A stretch of 64,000 nt of DNA from Streptomyces sp. DI166 (GTDB lineage: Bacteria > Actinomycetota > Actinomycetes > Streptomycetales > Streptomycetaceae), in contig NZ_FLSP01000005.1 in assembly GCF_900091315.1 (NCBI RefSeq), positions 62,001-126,000 of the forward strand, written 5' to 3'. Positions 5,072 through 62,486 of the stretch are shown piece after piece. Position 1 is the first letter of the stretch; every line of letters starts with the position of its first letter. The notes under the pieces were generated by a model. It was not told the origin of the DNA. It searched no databases and saw only the letters and a list, made by a program, of their open reading frames with translations. Both the position numbers and the translations under genes were made by a program.

Positions 5072-5539
5072 TCAGCTCACGGCCTTGGAGACCAGTTCCG
5101 CGATCCGGGTCTCGTCGGCCGGGGTGAGGCGGGCGAGGGCGAAGTAGGTGGGCCACATGTTTCCCTCGTCGAGGGCCGCGGTGTCGCTGAAACCGAGCAT
5201 CGCGTAGCGGGAGTTGAACTTCTGCGCGCTCTGGAAGAAGCAGACGACCTTGCCGTTCCTGGCGTAGGCCGGCATGCCGTACCAGAGCTTCGGGGCCAGT
5301 TCGGGGGCGGTGGAGGTGACGACGGCGTGGACGCGCTCGGCCAGCTCCCGGTCCGACTCGCCCATCTCGCCGATCTTCTCCAGTACGGCCGCCCGGTCCT
5401 GGGCCTCCTTCTCGGCGCGCGAGGTGCGGCGGGAGGAGGCCTTCACTTCCTTGGCGCGCTCCTTCATCGCGGCGCGCTCCTGCGCGGTCCACTCCTGGGT
5501 GTCGCTGTCGCGGTCCGCGGTCTGCCGGGTGCTGGTCAT
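5072..5539 (-). CDS. DUF1801 (iron chaperone-like) protein
   Basis: 155 residues. The C-terminal two thirds match the DUF1801/YdhG fold, with LWYGMPAYARNGKVVCFF and GFSDTAALDEG visible. The N-terminal 60 residues are charged and probably coiled-coil (many Arg, Lys and Glu). Family members are small cytoplasmic alpha/beta proteins; one relative is proposed to act as a frataxin-like iron chaperone, but most have no proven function. Its ATG overlaps the stop of the upstream AhpD-like gene by 4 bp, so the two are translationally coupled and probably work together. Confidence 0.85.
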   Translation of the reverse strand: MTSTRQTADRDSDTQEWTAQERAAMKERAKEVKASSRRTSRAEKEAQDRAAVLEKIGEMGESDRELAERVHAVVTSTAPELAPKLWYGMPAYARNGKVVCFFQSAQKFNSRYAMLGFSDTAALDEGNMWPTYFALARLTPADETRIAELVSKAVS

Positions 5540-6012
5540 GACGGGTTCCTTCCGTTGCTGTCGTTCGCGGGGACGCTCTGGCGCGTGATGGCGCCGAGCC
5601 GGTTGAGCAGGTTGGTGGTGCCGATCAGCAGGATCAGCGCGGCGAGCCTGCGCTCGTCGTAGTAGGTGGCCGCCCGGTCCCAGGTGCGGTCGTCGACCGC
5701 GTCGGGCCGGTCGGCGAGCCGGGTGGCGGTCTCGGCCAGTTCCAGGGCCGCCCGTTCCGCCGGGGTGAACCAGGCGGTGTCCCGCCAGGCGGCGAGGGCG
5801 TGCAGGCGTTCGTCGCTGACGCCGGCCGCGCGGGCCGCCGTGACCCCGGCGTGGACATCGGATCCGCAGCCGTTGATCTGGCTGATCCGCAGCCGTACCA
5901 GGGCCAGCGTCCGCGGGTCCGGGCCGGCTGAGTGCACGGCGCGGAGGATCTCCGTCAGGGGCCGGGCCGTGTCCGGCAGGACATCGGCGGGGTTCCGCAT
6001 ACGGGGCCGCAT
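5536..6012 (-). CDS. Carboxymuconolactone decarboxylase/AhpD-like protein lacking the CxxC pair
   Basis: 158 residues, the standard size for the AhpD-like CMD family. The recognisable core is RISQINGCGSDVHAG, where active AhpD-type proteins carry a Cys-x-x-Cys pair and a nearby His. Here the first Cys and the His remain, but the second Cys is replaced (C-G-S-D), so the classical thiol-disulfide chemistry is unlikely. The C-terminal helix (ALILLIGTTNLLNRLGAI) is typical. The start at 6012 has an AAGGGAG ribosome site. It is the first gene of a two-gene unit with the DUF1801 protein. Fold assignment is good; function is uncertain. Confidence 0.85.
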   Translation of the reverse strand: MRPRMRNPADVLPDTARPLTEILRAVHSAGPDPRTLALVRLRISQINGCGSDVHAGVTAARAAGVSDERLHALAAWRDTAWFTPAERAALELAETATRLADRPDAVDDRTWDRAATYYDERRLAALILLIGTTNLLNRLGAITRQSVPANDSNGRNPS

Positions 6013-6210
6013 CGTTCTCTCCCTTCTCTTCCGGTCCGGTTCTCGGTGCCCCGTTTCCGTCGGGGTGTGGCTCCATCACAGCCCGGCCCGGACGTACCGA
6101 CCATGCGCGTGGGACGGCGTGGGACAGCGGAACGGCCCTTGACCTGCGTGGACCGGGGCGGAAAGACTTCTGCGGCGATGGGACGGACGGCGCTTCTGTC
6201 CCGGGATGAA

Positions 6211-6313
6211 CAGTGCTTCCGCCCGGGGGACGGACCGTGCTTCCGCGCCCCGGGGGACGGACAGTGCTTCCGCGCCCCGGGGGAAGGACAGTGCTTCCGC
6301 CCGGGGGACGGCA
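6211..6313 (+). repeat. Four tandem 24-27-bp repeats upstream of the NB-ARC regulator gene
   Basis: Four adjacent copies start at 6211, 6235, 6262 and 6289, each built on CAGTGCTTCCGC, then CCGGGGGACGG, with an optional extra GCC in copies 2 and 3. A more degenerate unit precedes them (about 6190-6210). Because the changes are in threes, the frame continuous with the downstream gene stays open and would encode a repeated CFR-PG-DG motif. The repeats end 17 bp before the probable start codon. They could be an operator array or an N-terminal extension of the protein. Confidence 0.85.
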
Positions 6314-6330
6314 ACGACGGGGGAACAGTC

Positions 6331-8769
6331 ATGAACGCATCCACGAACGATCCGCAGGAAGAACTGGCGGCCCGGCTGCGGATGCTCCAGGAGCTGTCCG
6401 GGCTCGGCGTCCGCGCGCTCGCCCGGGAGGCGGGGCTCAGCTCCTCGTCCCTGTCCCGGTACCTCAACGGGCAGACCGTGCCGCCGTGGCCGGCCGTGGT
6501 CGCCCTGTGCCGGCTGGTCAAGCGCGACCCGCGCCCGCTGCGGCCCCTGTGGGAGCGGATCTCCAGCCCGCTGCCCGCGCCCCCGAAGAGCAGCCGCCAG
6601 GCCCGCCCGCGCCCCCGCAACGACCTGCCGCGCGACGTGCCCGACTTCACCGGCCGTGCGGAGGAGCTGGCCGCGGTGTTCGCCGCCGTCGACAGCCACC
6701 GCGCGGTCTCCGTGGACGGGATGGCGGGCGTCGGCAAGACCTCCCTCGCCGTGCACGCCGCGCACCGCCTGGCCGACGGCTTCCCCGACGGACAGCTCTA
6801 CGTCGACCTGCACGGCTTCACCGAGGGCCGCCTCCCGCTCGACCCCGACTCGGCGCTGCGGATGCTGCTCGGCGCGCTGGACGTCCCGTCCGAGCGGGTC
6901 CCGCAGGAGGGGCTGGAGCAACTGGCCGCCTGTTGGCGCGCGGAGCTGGCGGACCGTCGGGTCGTGGTGGTCCTCGACAACGCCGCCGACGCGGACCAGG
7001 TACGGCCGCTGCTGCCCGGCGCCGGGGACTCCGTCGCCCTGATCACCAGCCGCAACCGGCTGTTCGGCCTGGACGAGGTGCCGCCGGTCTCCCTGGACGT
7101 GCTCGGCCCCGAGGAGGGCGCGCAGTTGCTGGCGCGGGCGAGCGGGGAGAGCGGCGGCCCCGAGGGCAGGCTGGCCCGTGACCCGGAGTCGGCGGCCGAG
7201 GTGCTTCGGCTGTGCGGGCGGTTGCCGCTGGCGCTGCGGCTGGCAGGGGCCCGGCTGCGGCACCGGCCGGGCTGGACCGTGGGCATCCTGGCCGAGCGGC
7301 TCGCCGAGGGGACGGGCGAGTTCGACACCGCGTTCGCGATGTCGGTGCGTCAACTGGACCGCCCGCACGCCCGTTTGTTCCGGCTGCTGGGCCTGCTGCC
7401 CGGGGAGTCCTTCGACGAGTACGTGGCGGCGGCACTGGCGGACGTGCCGGTGCGCACGGCGCGGGCCATGCTGGAGGACCTGGTCGACGCCCACCTCGTA
7501 CAGCAGCCGTCGGCGGGCCGCTACCGGCTGCACGATCTGGTGCACCAGCACGCGCGCCGCGCCTCGGCCGAGGAGGACCCGGCGGCCGAGCGGGAACGGG
7601 CCCTGGTGCGGGTGCTGGACTTCTACGTCCACACGGCGGCCGCCGCCGACGCCGCGATGCCGTTCGTGTCACCGGACCGCGCGGTCGCGGTGGGGCCCGC
7701 CCCGGCCGAACTCCCCCGATTCGCCGACAAAAACGCCGCCTTCGGCTGGCTCACCACGGAGTACGGCAACCTCGTCGCGGTGTTCGAGACCGCCGCGGCG
7801 ATCGGCGCGGACGCTCATGTCTGCGAACTGCCGCGCTACTTGAGGTCGTACTTCGCGCGCCGGTGCGGCACGACCCACCTCAACGCCCTCTTCGAGCGGG
7901 CGCTTGCCGCCGCGGAACGGCTGGGCGAGCCGCTGCGGCTGGCGGAGGCGTACAGCGATCTGGGTTTCGCCCGCTACAACGCGGGCCGTACGGCGGAGGC
8001 GGCCGAGGCGTACGCGGCGGCCCGGCTCCGCCTCAAGGAGGCGGGGGACGGCCGTGCCGAGGCGGAACTGACGTTGCGCCGGGGCTATTTGAGCTGGGAC
8101 GCGGGACACGTCGAGGAGCCGCTTGAGCTGTTCCGGCTCGCGGGGAAGCTGTACACCGACGCGGGCTGTCCCGAGGGCGCCGCGCACGCGGCCGCCGCCG
8201 AGTCCTGGGCACTGCTGCAACTGGGGCAGTCCGAGGAGGCGGCGCGGCTGGCCCGCGAGGTGCTGGAGGTTCCGCACGCCGACGCCGCGTGGCCGCCCGC
8301 GCTGACCGCGCGGATCGTACTCGGGGTGGCGCTGTCCCGGGAGACCCCCGAGGCGGCCTCGGACCACCTCCGGCAGGCGCTGTCGCTGGCCCGGGAGGAC
8401 GGCCATCTGCACAACCAGGCGTGGTGTCTGAACTGCCGGGGTGTGGCACTGCGGCACATGGGCCGGTACGAGGAGGCGCTTGCCAGCCACCGTGAGGCCT
8501 TCGAGCTGCTGGACGAGCTGTTCGAGGAGCACTGGAAGATCCACTTCCTCAACGGCTACGCCGAGACCTGCCGGCTGGCCGGGCTGCCCGACGAGGCGCT
8601 GGGACTGCACCGGCAGGCCCTCGAACTGGGCCCGAGGCTCGGCAACCGGCACGAGGAGGCCGAGGCACACGAGGGCATCGCACGCGTACTGGACGGAACG
8701 GACCCGGAGCGGGCGGCTGAACACCGGGCGGCGGCACGGGTGGTGAGGGAGTCGCTGACAGCGGTGTGA
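6331..8769 (+). CDS. XRE/NB-ARC/TPR transcriptional regulator
   Basis: 812 residues from the ATG at 6331, which has a GGGGGA ribosome site. The order is: a Cro/XRE-type helix-turn-helix (about 12-65, with VRALAREAGLSSSSLSRYL), a proline/arginine linker, an NB-ARC ATPase with P-loop GMAGVGKTS (130-138) and Walker B-like VVVVLDNAAD, a winged-helix region, then TPR-like repeats to the end. This is an AfsR-like layout with an XRE domain in place of the SARP domain. Such proteins are nucleotide-switched cytoplasmic regulators whose TPRs receive a signal; the targets are unknown. In-frame upstream ATGs, such as 6178, would add Cys-rich repeats; I prefer 6331 because of its ribosome site and conventional N-terminus. 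It is a single-gene unit. Confidence 0.9.
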   Translation: MNASTNDPQEELAARLRMLQELSGLGVRALAREAGLSSSSLSRYLNGQTVPPWPAVVALCRLVKRDPRPLRPLWERISSPLPAPPKSSRQARPRPRNDLPRDVPDFTGRAEELAAVFAAVDSHRAVSVDGMAGVGKTSLAVHAAHRLADGFPDGQLYVDLHGFTEGRLPLDPDSALRMLLGALDVPSERVPQEGLEQLAACWRAELADRRVVVVLDNAADADQVRPLLPGAGDSVALITSRNRLFGLDEVPPVSLDVLGPEEGAQLLARASGESGGPEGRLARDPESAAEVLRLCGRLPLALRLAGARLRHRPGWTVGILAERLAEGTGEFDTAFAMSVRQLDRPHARLFRLLGLLPGESFDEYVAAALADVPVRTARAMLEDLVDAHLVQQPSAGRYRLHDLVHQHARRASAEEDPAAERERALVRVLDFYVHTAAAADAAMPFVSPDRAVAVGPAPAELPRFADKNAAFGWLTTEYGNLVAVFETAAAIGADAHVCELPRYLRSYFARRCGTTHLNALFERALAAAERLGEPLRLAEAYSDLGFARYNAGRTAEAAEAYAAARLRLKEAGDGRAEAELTLRRGYLSWDAGHVEEPLELFRLAGKLYTDAGCPEGAAHAAAAESWALLQLGQSEEAARLAREVLEVPHADAAWPPALTARIVLGVALSRETPEAASDHLRQALSLAREDGHLHNQAWCLNCRGVALRHMGRYEEALASHREAFELLDELFEEHWKIHFLNGYAETCRLAGLPDEALGLHRQALELGPRLGNRHEEAEAHEGIARVLDGTDPERAAEHRAAARVVRESLTAV

Positions 8770-23859: not shown

Positions 23860-24474
23860 TCAGTAGAGCTTGTTGACCGCCCTCTTGGTGGTCTTCTTGA
23901 ACGCGGCGAGCGGGGCGTCGGACAGGTCGCCCATCTGCGACCAGTGCACGACGGTCACCGTGCGGCCGTCCCGGCCGACGGAGAGCAGCTCGACGTCGTT
24001 GGCGCCCCAGGAGGTCTCGATGTGCATGCCGTGCACACGGGCGCCCTCCTCCACGGACAGCGAGCCGTACGACTTGTACGTCGCCTCCAGGTCCGGCTGG
24101 GCGTCGGCGCGCTTGGCGCACTTCTTGTACGCCTTGTTGAGGCTGTCCGCCAGCGCCTTCGCCTTGGCCTTGGTGCCGACCACGACCGTCAGCTGGCGGG
24201 CGGTGGTGTCCAGGTCGGTGCGGAAGGCGCGGTAGCTCATGTCGTAGGCGAGCAGCGGCTCCTCCAGGCAGTACCGCAGCTCGTCCGGCATACCGGGCTT
24301 GACCTTGTCGGCGGTCCAGCCGGAGGGGTGCGGCGGGAGTTCGGAGGCGGCCAGGAAGCGGGGCGCGCTGCCCACCCGCGGTGAGGCTCCGGCCGGTACG
24401 GTGAGGGCCGCGCCGGCGGCGACGGCGGCGACGGTGACTGCGGCTACGGCGCCTGCTCGGGTGCGCTTGTGCAT
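23860..24474 (-). CDS. Secreted protein of unknown function
   Basis: 204 residues. A clear Sec signal peptide (MHKRTRAG, then an Ala/Val core ending near GAS at about 30) is present, with no lipobox or membrane anchor. The mature part is a small alpha/beta domain with Cys residues near YCLEEP and KKCAKR that may form a disulfide. It has a pattern like bacterial sensor or PknH-type extracellular domains (TARQLTVVVGTKAKAKALAD). I do not recognise a named family with certainty. It is divergent from the frameshifted XRE-transmembrane gene, 191 nt away, so the two may be functionally linked. Confidence 0.75.
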   Translation of the reverse strand: MHKRTRAGAVAAVTVAAVAAGAALTVPAGASPRVGSAPRFLAASELPPHPSGWTADKVKPGMPDELRYCLEEPLLAYDMSYRAFRTDLDTTARQLTVVVGTKAKAKALADSLNKAYKKCAKRADAQPDLEATYKSYGSLSVEEGARVHGMHIETSWGANDVELLSVGRDGRTVTVVHWSQMGDLSDAPLAAFKKTTKRAVNKLY

Positions 24475-24665
24475 GGGTGTCCCCCGTGAGTGATGTGTGG
24501 GTGCGAGATGTCGTCACCGCGCCGCGGGCTGGTCGGTCCGGCGGCCGTCGGTGCGACACCAAGAGCATCGGTGGCCCTCGCAACCGGACGCAAGCGGGGA
24601 TGGCACTTCTCCGGCGGTGGAACCATCCCATGCCGTCTGACGTGCAGGTATATGAGGTGCCTGGG

Positions 24666-26043
24666 ATGCCGTCCCGGGCCGGACGACACGGGGGAATGGT
24701 GTCGGGACAGGACGAGGTCGCCGAGTTCGCCGGTCTGCTGCGGCAGTTCAAGGAGCGGACCGACCGCAGTTACGGCTCGCTGGCGCGCCGGCTCGGGATG
24801 AACACCTCCACGCTGCACCGCTACTGCGCCGGGGACGCGGTCCCCCAGGACTTCGCCCCGGTGGAACGCTTCGCCGCGCTGTGCGGGGCGTCGGCGGAGG
24901 AGCGGATGGAACTCCACCGACTGTGGCTGCTGGCGGTCGCGGCCAGACAGCGGCCAAAGGGGGCGGCGGAATCCAAGGAAGAGGCGGAGGAGCCTGCGGC
25001 CCCCGAGGAAGCCGCCGCGACGGAGACGGAGACGGAGACGGAGACACCTCCGGAAGTCGAGGACGCCACCCCGCCCCCAACCGCACAGGCCCCCGCCTCC
25101 CGGCCCCCGCCCCTGGTACCGCCGCCGCAGGGCCACCGTCGTCGCCGCCGTGGTCGCCGTCCTGCTCGCCACCCTGGGCACGCTCGCCGCCCTGGACACC
25201 GACCGGGGCGGGCGCGGGGCCGACGGACGGCGTACCGGGGCCGGACCGGGCACCTCGGCGCCCGCCGACCCGCGGGGCACCTCCCCCGCCCCCACGACCA
25301 CCTCGCCGTCGCCCTCCACGTCCAAGTCCCATTCCAAGTCCGAGGACGGCTCGACGAAACCGTCGTCCCCGCAGGACGGGCCGACCACGGGCGCGCAGTC
25401 CACGCAGAAGGGCAAGCCCGTCGGCGGGCTCCCGCTGACCTGGAGCGCCGATTCCCACGTCTGGGCGGAGGGCTGCGGGCACGACTACGTCATCAACCGT
25501 CCCCCGGCGCAGGTGGCGCCGCCCCCGCCGGCGCAGGACGCCCGTACCTGGGCCGGTGCGCAGGGCGCGGTGCACGGGCGGGAGACCATCGTGCGGGTCA
25601 CGGTGCAGGGCCGGACGTCCACGGCCGTGGTGCTGGAGGCGCTGCGGGTCCGGGTGGTCGGCCGCACGGCCCCGCTCAAGGGCAACGCGTACGCCATGAA
25701 CCAGGGCTGCGGTGGCGCGCTGACCCCGCGCTTCTTCGCGGTCGACCTGGACAAGGACCGGCCGATCGCCCGCCCGATGGCCGGCAGCGACGCGGGCACG
25801 CCCATCCCGGCGATGCGCCTGCCCTACCGAGTCTCCGCCGAGGACCCGGAGGTCCTGCTGGTCACCGCCCGCACCGCGGGCTGCGCCTGCGACTGGTACC
25901 TGGAGCTGGACTGGTCCTCCCAGGGCCGCACCGGCACGATCCGCATCGACGACGACGGCCGCCCGTTCCGCACGACCGCCATCAAGGGCCTGCCCCGGTA
26001 CATGTACGACACCGAGGCCCGCGAGTGGGGGCCGTACGCCTGA
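24666..26043 (+). pseudogene. XRE regulator with transmembrane helix and extracellular domain, frameshifted
   Basis: The first part (24666 to about 25110, GAGGTG ribosome site) encodes an XRE helix-turn-helix (YGSLARRLGMNTSTLHRYCA), then a Glu/Ala and Thr-Glu repeat linker. The second part is in the +1 frame and continues from about 25110 to 26043. It starts with WYRRRRATVVAAVVAVLLA, a membrane helix behind a positive cluster, then a Ser/Thr/Pro-rich stalk and a domain of about 200 residues with several cysteines. Dropping one C from the C-rich run at 25103-25113 joins both into one protein of about 458 residues. Intact, it would be a one-component membrane regulator: DNA binding inside, sensing outside. 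Base composition stays coding-like in both halves, so this is a recent mutation or an assembly error. Confidence 0.75.
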
Positions 26044-26046
26044 CCG

Positions 26047-27789
26047 TCAGGGCCTCGGGACGTTGCGGAGGTTGGAGCGGGCCATCTGGAGCATGCGGCC
26101 GACTCCGCCGTCCAGGACGATCTTCGAGGCGGACAGGGCGAAGCCGGTGACCATCTCGGCACTGATCTTCGGCGGGATGGACAGGGCGTTGGGGTCGGTG
26201 ACGATGTCGACGAGCGCCGGGCCCTTGTGCTTGAAGGCGGCCTTCAGGGCGCCCGCGAGCTGCTTGGGCTTCTCCACGCGGATGCCGTGGGCGCCGCAGG
26301 CGCGGGCCACGGCCGCGAAGTCGGGGTTCTTGTTGGCGGTGCCGTAGGAGGGCAGTCCGGCGACCAGCATCTCCAGCTCGACCATGCCGAGCGAGGAGTT
26401 GTTGAAGAGGATCACCTTCACCGGCAGGTCGTACTGGACCAGGGTGAGGAAGTCGCCCATCAGCATGGCGAATCCGCCGTCACCGGACATCGACACGACC
26501 TGGCGGCCGCGGTCGGTGAACTGGGCGCCGATCGCCATGGGCAGCGCGTTCGCCATGGATCCGTGGGAGAAGGAACCGATCACCCGGCGGCGGCCGTTGG
26601 GGGTGATGTACCGGGCGGCCCAGACGTTGCACATGCCGGTGTCGACGGTGAAGACGGCGTCGTCGTCGGCGAGTTCGTCCAGTACGGAGGCGACGTACTC
26701 GGGGTGGATCGGGACGTGCTTCTCGACCTTCCTGGTGTACGCCTTGACCACGCCCTCCAGCGCGTCCGCGTGTTTCTTCAGCATCTTGTCCAGGAAGCGC
26801 CTGCTGCTCTTCGTCCGCACGCGCGGGATGACACAGCGCAGGGTCTCGCGGACGTCGCCCCAGACCGCGAGGTCCAGCTTGGAGCGGCGGCCGAGGTGTT
26901 CGGGCCGGACGTCGACCTGGGCGATCCTGACGTCGTCGGGCAGGAAGGCGTTGTACGGGAAGTCCGTGCCGAGCAGGATCAGCAGATCGCACTCGTGGGT
27001 GGCCTCGTAGGCGGCGCCGTACCCGAGCAGCCCGCTCATCCCCACATCGAACGGATTGTCGAACTGAATCCATTCCTTGCCCCGCAGGGCATGGCCGACC
27101 GGCGACTTGATCTTCTCCGCCAGCTGCATGACCTCGGCGTGCGCGCCCTTGGTGCCGCTGCCGCAGAAGAGGGTGACCTTCTCGGCGGCGTCGATCATCT
27201 CCACCAGCCGGTCGATCTCGGCGTCGCCGGGGCGGACCGTGGGCCGGGTGGTGACCAGGGCGGTCTCGACGGGCTTGGCGGGGGCGGGCTGGTCGGCGAT
27301 GTCCCCGGGCAGGGAGACGACACTGACGCCGGAGCGGCCGATCGCGTGCTGGATGGCGGTCTGCAGCAGGCGCGGCATCTGCTGCGGATGGGAGATCATC
27401 TCGCAGTAGTGACTGCACTCCTGGAACAGCCGGTCCGGGTGGGTCTCCTGGAAGTAGCCCAGGCCGATCTCGCTGGACGGGATGTGCGAGGCGAGGGCGA
27501 GGACGGGCGCCATGGACCGGTGGGCGTCGTAGAGGCCGTTGATGAGGTGCAGGTTGCCGGGGCCGCAGGAGCCCGCGCAGGCCGTCAGCTTCCCGGTGAT
27601 CTGCGCCTCCGCGCCGGCCGCGAAGGCGGCGGTCTCCTCGTGCCGGACGTGCACCCATTCGATGCCACGGTGGCGGCGCACGGCGTCCACGACGGGGTTG
27701 AGGCTGTCGCCGACGACCCCGTACAGGCGTTCCACCCCGGCGCGGGCGAGGATGTCGACGAACTGTTCCGCGACGTTCTGCTTGGCCAT
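26047..27789 (-). CDS. poxB: Thiamine-diphosphate pyruvate oxidase/dehydrogenase (PoxB-like)
   Basis: 580 residues in the usual three-domain order. The N-terminal pyrimidine-binding domain carries the catalytic Glu51 (HVRHEETAAFAAGA). The middle FAD/NAD-like domain contains LFCGSGTKGAHAEV. The pyrophosphate domain shows MSGDGGFAMLMGDF with the following NN, the GDG-NN thiamine site. Best fit is pyruvate:quinone oxidoreductase, which converts pyruvate to acetate and CO2 with electrons passing to the quinone pool. Acetolactate synthase-like relatives cannot be fully excluded. Start at 27789. The 3' end lies 3 nt from the convergent gene, and the PP2C-like gene is 77 nt upstream on the same strand. 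Confidence 0.88.
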   Translation of the reverse strand: MAKQNVAEQFVDILARAGVERLYGVVGDSLNPVVDAVRRHRGIEWVHVRHEETAAFAAGAEAQITGKLTACAGSCGPGNLHLINGLYDAHRSMAPVLALASHIPSSEIGLGYFQETHPDRLFQECSHYCEMISHPQQMPRLLQTAIQHAIGRSGVSVVSLPGDIADQPAPAKPVETALVTTRPTVRPGDAEIDRLVEMIDAAEKVTLFCGSGTKGAHAEVMQLAEKIKSPVGHALRGKEWIQFDNPFDVGMSGLLGYGAAYEATHECDLLILLGTDFPYNAFLPDDVRIAQVDVRPEHLGRRSKLDLAVWGDVRETLRCVIPRVRTKSSRRFLDKMLKKHADALEGVVKAYTRKVEKHVPIHPEYVASVLDELADDDAVFTVDTGMCNVWAARYITPNGRRRVIGSFSHGSMANALPMAIGAQFTDRGRQVVSMSGDGGFAMLMGDFLTLVQYDLPVKVILFNNSSLGMVELEMLVAGLPSYGTANKNPDFAAVARACGAHGIRVEKPKQLAGALKAAFKHKGPALVDIVTDPNALSIPPKISAEMVTGFALSASKIVLDGGVGRMLQMARSNLRNVPRP

Positions 27790-27866
27790 GACTGCCGGGT
27801 GCCCCTTCGGTCGCCTTCGATCCCTCTGGGTTCCATTGGAGGCACAGCGGCGCGGTGTTCGCTCGG

Positions 27867-29159
27867 TCAGCTCTCCCAGACGGCGGCAGCCGTACGGTCG
27901 TCGGCGTAGCCCTTGACCCGGACCTGGACGTCGGCCAGGAAGGCGGCCAGGCCGGGCGGGGCGGGGTCCGACCAGCGGTCGGTGAGGTGGGCGGCGAGGT
28001 CCGGCTCGCCGCGCAGGGGTTCGGCGAGCCCGCTGGTGCACATCAGCAGCGTGTCACCCGGCCGGGCTACCGAGGCCCGGAACCGGAAGGGCTCCCGCGG
28101 CGGCTCGGGGGCCGGTTCGTACGGGCTCGGCGGCTTGGGGATGCCCAGGTCCATGGTGAGCCGGTCGCCCTCGGGGGTCTCGGCGGGCAGCGAGCCGAAG
28201 CCGACGACCGCGTCCCCGGTGGCGTCGACGACCCGCGGCTCGATGTCCTGCCACTCGCCGTCCCGGAGCCGGAACAGGCCGCCCGCGCCGACGCCGAAGA
28301 AGACCCGGATACGGCAGTCGGGGTCGGCGGGCAGCAGCAGGCAGCGCAGGGTGGCCGCGTACTCCTCCGGGTCGACGCCCTGTTCGGAGGCGCTGGCACG
28401 GAGTTTGCCGAGGCTGCGGTCGGTGAGCCGGTGCAGGCCCGACTTCAGGTCGCCGCGGCGGGCGGCGCGGATGTCCTCGGCGAGCCGGGCGTGGCTGCGG
28501 CCGACGGCCCTGCCGATCCACTGGCAGGCCTCGGCGGCGGCGCGGTGGGCGCCGGGGGTGGCGCGGGCGCCGGTGGCCATGGCGACGAGGAGCAGTGCGC
28601 TGTCGCCGGTGCCGAAGCGGGCGGTGAGCAGGGAGTCGCGGCGGGGTTCGCCCCGGAAGCGGGCGGAGTCGCCGCGGAGGGAGGCGGCGCGCAGGGTGCA
28701 GGCGCCGTAGCGGGCGCCGTCCAGGACGGTGTCGGCGACGAGGTCGTCCAGGTCCTCGGGGTCGGCGGGCGGCAGGGCGGTGGGTTCGGCGTCGTAGGTG
28801 GGCGGGCCGGAGCCGACGTAGTCGACGGTGGCGGGCACCGGGGGCGCGGCGGGGCGGTCGTCCGGCGGCGGGGCGGAGGGCTGCTCGGTGTGCAGGGGCG
28901 GCTTGCCGAAGCGGACGGGCGGCTCCTCGAAACGCGTCGGCGCTTGCTCGGCCGGGGCCGGTGGGGAGGTCTGGCGGGGTGTGGGGATGCGCGGTTCGAG
29001 GTCCGGAACGGTTCTGCCCAGCGTGCCGGACGCGGACACGAACCGGTCGTCCACCGAGTCCGGGGCCGCGGTGGGCCCGGTGTCCTGGGTGGAGTCGTCG
29101 TACAGCTGTGTCCACCAGTCGTCCTCGCGGCCGGTGGACCTACCCCCCTGCTGGCTCAT
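27867..29159 (-). CDS. PP2C-like phosphatase family protein, probably catalytically degenerate
   Basis: 430 residues. A Pro-rich disordered N-terminus (about 1-135) precedes a PP2C_2-type domain (about 140-425). The expected metal-binding motifs are altered. Where active members have ADG there is ATG (VAMATGARA), where GDG is common there is GAG (FFGVGAGGLFRL), and SDG/TDG is TSG (CTSGLAEPL). Only the last DDR motif (YADDRTAAAVW) is kept. This suggests a pseudophosphatase that may bind phosphoproteins or other partners. No kinase gene is adjacent. The family match is clear; loss of activity is inferred from the missing Asp residues. Confidence 0.78.
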   Translation of the reverse strand: MSQQGGRSTGREDDWWTQLYDDSTQDTGPTAAPDSVDDRFVSASGTLGRTVPDLEPRIPTPRQTSPPAPAEQAPTRFEEPPVRFGKPPLHTEQPSAPPPDDRPAAPPVPATVDYVGSGPPTYDAEPTALPPADPEDLDDLVADTVLDGARYGACTLRAASLRGDSARFRGEPRRDSLLTARFGTGDSALLLVAMATGARATPGAHRAAAEACQWIGRAVGRSHARLAEDIRAARRGDLKSGLHRLTDRSLGKLRASASEQGVDPEEYAATLRCLLLPADPDCRIRVFFGVGAGGLFRLRDGEWQDIEPRVVDATGDAVVGFGSLPAETPEGDRLTMDLGIPKPPSPYEPAPEPPREPFRFRASVARPGDTLLMCTSGLAEPLRGEPDLAAHLTDRWSDPAPPGLAAFLADVQVRVKGYADDRTAAAVWES

Positions 29160-61447: not shown

Positions 61448-62486
61448 TCATCCCACCCGCACCAGGCCCCTGGGCACCAGACCCTGGGCGAGCAGTTCGT
61501 CGCGGACGATCCCGGCGTAGGCGGTGGCGCCGCGCTCCGAGGTGTGGGTGTTGTCCCGTTTCTCGTTGTAGAGGTACAGCGCCTTGGAGCCCTCGACGCC
61601 GAGCGACTCGACGAGGGCCTTGGTGCGTGCGGTGAGGTCGACGAGCGGGACGTCCCGGTCGGCGGCGACCGCGCGGACGACCGCCGGGTGGTCCACCCCG
61701 AGTCCGTTGACCAGCAGGGCGGTGCCGTTGTTCAGGGTGCCGTCGGCGTTGAACCAGCGCCGCACGACCGGGGTGACCAGCACCGGCCGGCCGCCCCGCT
61801 CGCGGACCCCGGACACCAGGGGTTTCCAGGTTGGCGCGGTAGGTGGCCCCGTCGGTCGTCTTGTCGTTGTGCGCGAGCTGGATCAGTACCAGGTCGCCGC
61901 GCCGGATCCGCGGCCGGACCGTGTCCCACAGCCGGGGGTCGGCGAGATAACTGACCGTGCTCTCCCCGGAGTCGGCGTAATTGGCCACCGAGACTCCCTG
62001 GCGCAGGTACTGCGGGAGCTGCTGGCCCCAGCCGGTGTAGGGGTCGCCGGGCTGGTCGCAGACGGTGGAGTCGCCGATGAGGAAGATCTGCCGGGTGTGC
62101 CGGGCGGGGGTGACCCGGATGTCGGCGAGCGCGGGTGCCGAGCCGCCGATCGCCAGGTCAAGTCCGGGAGTTCCGTCGGGTCCGGTCGGTTCGCCCTCGG
62201 GGGTGCGGACGTCGACGGTGAAGGAGCGGGCGACGCGTGCCCCGGCGGGCGCGGCCGTCTCGGGGAGCAGGGCACGGCGGGTCTCGCCGCCGATGGCGGT
62301 GCTGGAGGCGGCCGGGCCGCCGAGGAGCACCCGTACGTCATAGGTGCCGGGCGGCAGGTCGAAGTGGCAGGCGGTGGCGGTGCAGTGGTCGATGTCCCGC
62401 ACCGGCGCGGCGGCCTGCGCGGGCCCGGCGGTCAGGGCGGTGCTCAGCGTCACCGCCGCCAGTACGGCGATGTCGAAACGTCTCAC
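61448..62486 (-). pseudogene. Rhamnogalacturonan acetylesterase (SGNH/GDSL), frameshifted
   Basis: The start is a GTG at 62486 behind GGAGGAG, giving a Sec signal peptide (RRFDIAVLAAVTLSTALTAG). A beta-rich N-terminal domain precedes the esterase. The first frame holds IFLIGDSTVCDQ (catalytic Ser) and HNDKTTDG, and runs to about YRANLET. The next frame resumes with SGVRERGGRPVLVTPVVRRW and carries the catalytic His (THTSERGATAYA) to the stop at 61448. Removing one base from the GGGG run at 61819-61822 (CCCC in the gene) restores one protein of about 346 residues. It would deacetylate rhamnogalacturonan I outside the cell. Either a true null mutation or an assembly error. Confidence 0.82.

Follow-up and report, generated by a model that had tools for sequence, protein, structure and literature searches.

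A putative membrane-tethered HTH_31 regulator, interrupted by a one-base frame offset in a Streptomyces genome, and the palindrome and divergent secreted-protein gene beside it

Transmembrane transcription regulators (TTRs), such as ToxR, CadC and TcpP, form a known and wide class, in which single-pass proteins and helix-turn-helix (HTH) domains are the commonest according to the sections of the survey drawn on here (PMC10269533). The regulator family described below shares with the TTRs of those sections a DNA-binding domain, a single transmembrane (TM) segment and an extracytoplasmic domain in one chain. It differs from them in its HTH_31 domain, an ectodomain without a Pfam match, an operator-like element and secreted targets. 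A term search of that survey returned neither XRE nor HTH_, and Streptomyces only within a reference (PMC10269533). SCO4439 of Streptomyces coelicolor is alike in combining a putative regulator domain, a middle TM segment and an outer domain; that outer domain, however, is a DD-carboxypeptidase, and the portions of the paper considered here describe no operator or divergent secreted gene (PMC4751497). Judged by titles and abstracts, the papers listed by our searches of one open library give no account of the regulator and its divergent secreted protein (hereafter S) as a pair, of the operator or of the target set, and a search there for DUF4232 in Streptomyces returned no paper.

We analysed a stretch of 64,000 nucleotides from Streptomyces sp. 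DI166 (the window). An open reading frame (ORF) analysis of the window showed that the regulator gene at 24699-26043 (+ strand) consists of two coding-like stretches whose frames lie one base apart. The first half (24699-25112, +) encodes an HTH_31 domain (PF13560; E 1e-13, 51.8 bits against a Pfam cut-off of 27) and an Ala/Pro/Glu-rich linker, and is open in the frame of 24666 and 24699 within an ORF that reaches 26150. The second half (25114-26043, +), read in the other frame, encodes WYRRRR, a TM-like segment, a Ser/Pro/Thr-rich linker and the ectodomain; its ORF (25150-26043), one base on, begins at a GTG (25150) that is the earliest ATG, GTG or TTG after the preceding stop of that frame. 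With each half read in its own frame, GC at third positions is 0.878 (24696-25112) and 0.961 (25114-26043), and an ab initio frame model placed the switch at 25117, with scores of 33 and 76-77 on either side. Both results agree with the preliminary description of this locus, which had read the halves as coding-like in different frames, and the offset is one base.

The ORF frames, the frame of a WYRRR-type motif and the ab initio model delimit a C-rich offset zone at 25085-25113 (+). WYRRR-type residues stand just ahead of the TM segment in many relatives, and the window reads PWYRRRR in the second frame only, so the offset must be finished by about 25113. The preliminary description had placed the gene at 24666-26043 with a break in a C run; a C-rich tract does lie at the offset, but the start at 24666 is probably wrong. 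Judging from the sequence, translation probably starts at GTG 24699, which follows GGGGGA (GGGGGA..GTG is conserved in the upstream alignment), and 24666-24668 falls within the operator-like palindrome described below. The unshifted first frame continues to 26150 without a hydrophobic segment (best 19-mer hydropathy 0.35). The gene as assembled would therefore encode an HTH domain that runs into a nonsense tail and lacks a TM segment, and membrane control of S would be lost. Tail to tail with the regulator lies a gene at 26047-28041 (-), which we take to encode a pyruvate-oxidase-like TPP enzyme; it was matched, at 85-92% identity, in 12 of 53 relatives, many with short flanks.

The hydrophobic segment VVAAVVAVLLATLGTLAAL (25138-25194, +) is TM-like, with a Kyte-Doolittle mean of 2.58 over 19 residues, and in each of the 70 same-frame relatives, among them L033, a 19-mer with a hydropathy of at least 1.4 lies between HTH and ectodomain. 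The ectodomain (25429-26040, +; 204 residues) is predicted to be mostly a beta sandwich, Ig-like, with a model pLDDT of 95.7. Across its 75-row alignment, cysteines are found at Cys94 in every row, Cys16 in 74, Cys154 in 60 and Cys152 in 59. The ectodomain of the window had no match in Pfam or NCBIfam and no PDB sequence match, and the 75 members gave just weak, scattered Pfam matches (best E 0.038). The best structural rows for the model reached a Z of 7.3 or less, and hence we claim no family for this domain; the lack of a database match does not show that the fold is new.

Relatives of the regulator were searched for in 61 genomes (41 matched), in 150 genomes of the genus (132 matched) and in named GTDB contigs (23 loci); only the best-matching loci, about 30 from each genome search, were retrieved. 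Once identical ends had been removed, 76 distinct loci remained, including the window and paralogues. Three of them (L043, L059 and L074), in which contig ends cut before the HTH, were set aside, which left 73 loci, that is, the window and 72 relatives. HTH and ectodomain lie in a single open frame in 69 of the 72 relatives, all with both ends in view; L061 and L064 were counted as intact, as their alignment starts a few codons before the open frame and the conserved start lies inside it. The halves lie in different frames in the window, in L006, where the shift is inside the HTH, and in L054, which has several breaks and has lost the TM region, while in L033 (S. griseoruber) the start of the HTH is gone through a deletion. 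The genome of the window holds one more, distant copy (L002; 41% identity), in one frame. Thus, the comparison with orthologues supports an XRE regulator with a membrane segment and an ectodomain that is split by a frameshift, as had been proposed, and orthologues made of two genes with their own starts did not appear among the assessable relatives.

The same 69 relatives carry the TTR architecture of a DNA-binding domain, a TM segment and an outer domain in one chain, whereas the window's own chain is broken. The DNA-binding domain of ToxR and CadC is a winged helix. The OmpR-type winged helix, which we take to be the domain that Pfam names Trans_reg_C, was absent among the Pfam matches of the first half at E up to 1, and HTH_31 was present. 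The label ToxR-like, given to the protein previously, can be retained for its likely way of working only and not for its DNA-binding domain.

The disrupted relatives differ in what surrounds the damage. L006 (genome G027), with its frameshift within the HTH domain, has S and a perfect palindrome. In L054 (Streptomyces sp. 549), the regulator at 5600-6513 runs through several frames without a TM region, and S is present. In L033, S and the regulator both lack their 5' ends, apparently through a single deletion at about 5463-5516, and the remnant of S abuts the remnant of the HTH.

The break seen in the window was found in none of the 72 assessable relatives. At near-invariant columns, the window departs from the family at 1 of 60 positions in the ectodomain (75 rows) and at 1 of 25 in the HTH (70 rows), within the ranges of 0-8 and 0-6 over all rows; since these residues are kept and decay is not seen, the break would be recent or not real. 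In the GeneTack survey of frameshifts, the sections used here treat homology-validated singletons as errors or recent indels, with sequencing errors expected to be the larger share, and require a conserved shift site for programmed cases (PMC3711429). Our case is alike in being a homology-validated frame change in one genome only, and just its regulator context is different. As the aligned loci present it, the break is a one-genome event, either a recent mutation or an assembly error, and not programmed recoding or phase variation.

Within this reading, the sub-case in which assembly error alone accounts for the offset, and the cell carries an unbroken gene, comes close to an even chance. The source assembly is a draft (8.87 Mb, 242 contigs), the operator-like element and S are intact, and the survey cited above would lead one to expect mostly sequencing errors among such singletons (PMC3711429). 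A general excess of frame errors was checked with a Viterbi frame model, with G142 (1 contig) and G128 (2 contigs) as controls. A first pass (464 kb and 400 kb) gave 82 and 72 events, almost all of them where gene ends overlap, and a first filter left 7 and 13; the final filtered pass returned 10 switches in 1.264 Mb of the own genome versus 7 (G142) and 2 (G128) in 0.4 Mb each, all of them uncurated candidates and several weak. The rate of the own genome (7.9 per Mb) lies between those of the controls (17.5 and 5.0), which speaks against assembly error, and there is no clear general excess of frame switches in this assembly. As for direction, +1 switches make up 8 of the 10 in the own genome and 3 of the 9 in the controls, a bias that hints at an insertion-type assembly error, which would make the break unreal. 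A second +1 switch in the window, at about 61820, points the same way; it lies within 61454-62486 (-), read as a GDSL-like hydrolase, whose first half matches PF00657 just below the cut-off (E 1.6e-4) and whose second half has no match. On the other hand, L006, L033 and L054 also look disrupted, each differently. Programmed +1 frameshifting or transcriptional slippage that yields a full-length protein, or a phase-variable C tract, is very improbable, even though both halves are intact with their near-invariant residues, C runs lie at the junction, and L054, which also lacks the TM region, changes frame in the linker too. The 69 single-frame relatives need no shift, a C run of at least five just before the WYR-type motif occurs in 10 of 32 motif rows (window included), the shift site has no stop codon, the next frame-0 stop lies about 1 kb on, and a conserved shift site is what defines programmed cases in the part of the survey used (PMC3711429). 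The preliminary description had suggested looking for slippage or +1 recoding, and this idea is not supported, as the window's break is in no relative and the junction has neither a stop nor a long run. Least probable of all, by a small step, would be that the halves are genuine proteins in their own right, the first a soluble HTH protein and the second a secreted or membrane protein with its own start. The GTG at 25150 could open the second frame; however, it lies inside the hydrophobic segment, no earlier ATG, GTG or TTG follows the stop in that frame, and the relatives have a single frame.

We also compared the locus with two known classes of genes, and neither assignment was kept. As a programmed frameshift gene it lacks a conserved shift site, given that 69 of 72 relatives are unshifted, L006 breaks in the HTH and L054 in the linker after loss of the TM region. 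As a phase-variable gene it lacks a hypermutable long repeat at the switch, where the longest run is C5, against 66 C5 and 18 C6 runs in the whole window.

S is encoded divergently from the regulator at 23860-24474 (-) and has 204 residues and a signal-like N terminus (best 19-mer hydropathy 2.04). Its structural model (pLDDT 91.0) has the fold of the PknH extracellular domain: on re-alignment the top row was 4esq, the PknH ectodomain (Z 15.0, rmsd 3.4, 160 aligned), followed by TiME (13.6). In a Foldseek search with the same model, 4esq was the second row (E 9.7e-4), behind the unrelated-looking 3b18 (TM 0.21). S resembles the PknH extracellular domain family (PF14032; 4esq) in this predicted fold, but the PknH ectodomain is the sensor of a kinase and S is a free secreted protein with 13% identity to it. 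The S of the window did not match PF14032 (PknH_C) at E up to 0.1 and had no PDB sequence match, and 5 of 32 S members gave weak PF14032 matches (best E 0.0012).

An S-like gene or remnant lies divergently beside 44 of the 70 regulators with enough flank (window included; one is a remnant); no S was found beside the other 26, and three further loci had too little flank. On a 69-row tree, the presence of S requires 4 changes versus a mean of 20.7 after shuffling, and none of 500 shuffles was as low. The pairing is therefore conserved, which upholds the earlier view of the secreted protein as a possible partner of the regulator, and the evidence favours S as a regulatory target. Among the regulators without an adjoining S are L041 and L044-L052, of which L041 and L044-L051 form one tree clade and L052 is outside the tree. 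Palindrome-like sites stand before downstream secreted-protein genes in L046, L047, L048 and L050.

The intergenic footprint at 24616-24675 (identity 0.70-0.92 by tens) holds a perfect palindrome, CATCCCA-N31-TGGGATG, with arms at 24624-24630 and 24662-24668 and a central TGACGTG at 24638-24644 (+). Abutting it is GGAAC (24619-24623, +), in a stretch with an identity of 0.91 (24616-24625) and with CGTG 17-18 nt on in the rows listed; presumably, this GGAAC could be an ECF-type -35 box toward the regulator. In a local scan that allowed one-base variants, 40 of 44 loci with S had the GGAAC..GACGTG core together with the two arms, versus 3 of 26 loci without S. The scan did not find the core in L030, L053, L033 and L054, although S or its remnant is present, and some regulators without S retain the core in part but lack the full pair of arms. 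Co-variation of the arms is slight and clear in L042 only.

Within a selected set of 60 genomes, 23 of the 31 with a close regulator contain the pattern CATYCCA-N30..32-TGGRATG, versus 1 of the 29 others. The same pattern gave 36 sites in 30 of 150 Streptomyces genomes, and the reversed pattern matched 1 genome. Sites that the pattern misses include one-base arm variants. Moreover, 34 of the 36 sites carry (T/C)GAC(C/G)TG at the centre, which the pattern does not ask for and which occurs in 818 of 20,000 random 31-mers (4%); two sites (G111:C3 and G160) have the CGAC(C/G)TG form, and the two without the motif (G032:C512 and G064) look like chance matches. The own genome has one palindrome site, and a rescan with up to 3 mismatches returned just this one. 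Core sites occur in 29 genomes, each of which also matches the ectodomain, and in none of the 18 genomes that lack any such match. Among the 47 genomes whose best ectodomain match reached an E of 1e-80 or less, 27 have a core site, versus 2 of the 103 others. A core site is missing from 103 of the 132 genomes in which an ectodomain was matched, so this exact sequence is not the one that distant members use.

Of the 34 sites with the central motif, 26 lie between a regulator and S; most sites are thus homologous, and the counts over sites are not independent. The remaining eight precede genes for six further kinds of secreted protein: T2 (L198 and L204), DUF4232 proteins (L190/L046, E 4.8e-21; L215, E 9.8e-19), T3 (L210), a small secreted protein (L216), a phospholipase A2-type protein (L217, E 8.5e-12) and an unnamed secreted protein (L218). 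The mature parts of these proteins match within a kind only, and no match across kinds was better than E 0.5. A regulator adjoins five of these eight sites, and none was found for L198, L215 and L217 in 3-4.5 kb of flank. A signal-peptide-like gene was found on the S side at 31 of the 32 sites with flank, on the other side at 1 of 28 (four had too little DNA) and at 73 of 1000 random positions, by a crude test with thresholds set by eye on 13 loci; the single miss, L212, has S by profile.

The side toward S also carries promoter-like boxes, in the window TTGCGT (-35-like, 24588-24593, -) and GATGCT (-10-like, 24564-24569, -). A sigma70-like pair, TTG(A/C/T)NN-N16..19-(G/T)A(A/C/T)NCT, stands 29-30 nt from the S-side arm at 29 of 32 sites (misses: L204, L212 and L215). 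The opposite side never carries it, and it occurs in 4 of 5000 random windows; this test was not blind, as the pattern was written after the region had been seen in 15 of the 32 sites and in a consensus of 42 regions with S. Additionally, TCGCACC at 65-68 nt is common to the promoters of S, T2, DUF4232 and L217, and was found within 150 nt at 19 of 32 sites versus 43 of 5000 background windows.

From the frame offset, the single-frame relatives, the gene pairing, the palindrome and the promoter-like boxes on a fixed side, all read from the DNA itself, we consider it fairly likely that the window holds one broken gene for a membrane-tethered one-component regulator whose intact family binds the palindrome, activates S and controls itself. 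Our confidence is slightly lowered by the promoter region having been seen beforehand in 15 sites and by the lack of the site in most genomes with distant members. In the proposed mechanism, HTH_31 would lie in the cytosol, followed by one TM segment, with the Ig-like ectodomain outside. The intact regulator would most likely bind CATCCCA-N30/31-TGGGATG and, once bound, may activate the secreted-protein gene from the sigma70-like promoter 29-30 nt from one arm. With the transcription start of S placed just past GATGCT, the centre of the palindrome falls near -89, a position that would suit an activator. Because about 30 nt separate the end of the palindrome from the start codon of the regulator gene, the regulator may also control itself through the same element. 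The ectodomain might set activity by sensing the state of the envelope or the extracellular space, possibly the secreted product; such sensing, and S as its ligand, are guesses.

The palindrome could instead be the site of another regulator, with the HTH-TM protein merely one of its targets, which we regard as unlikely. Such a binder would account for L198, L215 and L217, the three sites without a regulator gene in the fetched DNA, and for the shared promoter module as well. Conversely, core sites are confined to genomes with an ectodomain match and concentrate in those with the closest matches, although this association is partly trivial, as the site lies upstream of the regulator. We infer the HTH_31 protein as the binder from that partly trivial linkage and from the 18 genomes without an ectodomain match, all of which lack sites.

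Taken together, the frameshift alone is ordinary, while the family, with its predicted operator, promoter and target, offers a concrete Gram-positive case of a membrane-tethered regulator. The operator-like pattern serves as a search handle, and through it we reached one regulon-like group of mutually unrelated secreted-protein genes. If the intact regulator binds the palindrome, the question arises of how a membrane-fixed DNA-binding domain gains access to a site whose arm centres are 38 bp apart. It is possible, though rather doubtful, that these loci belong to a widespread Streptomyces system, in which membrane HTH_31/Ig-like regulators would activate exchangeable secreted proteins, such as the PknH-ectodomain-like S, DUF4232 proteins, the phospholipase A2-type protein and others, via a long-spaced palindrome at a fixed promoter distance, and would read back the product or its effect on the envelope in a closed loop.
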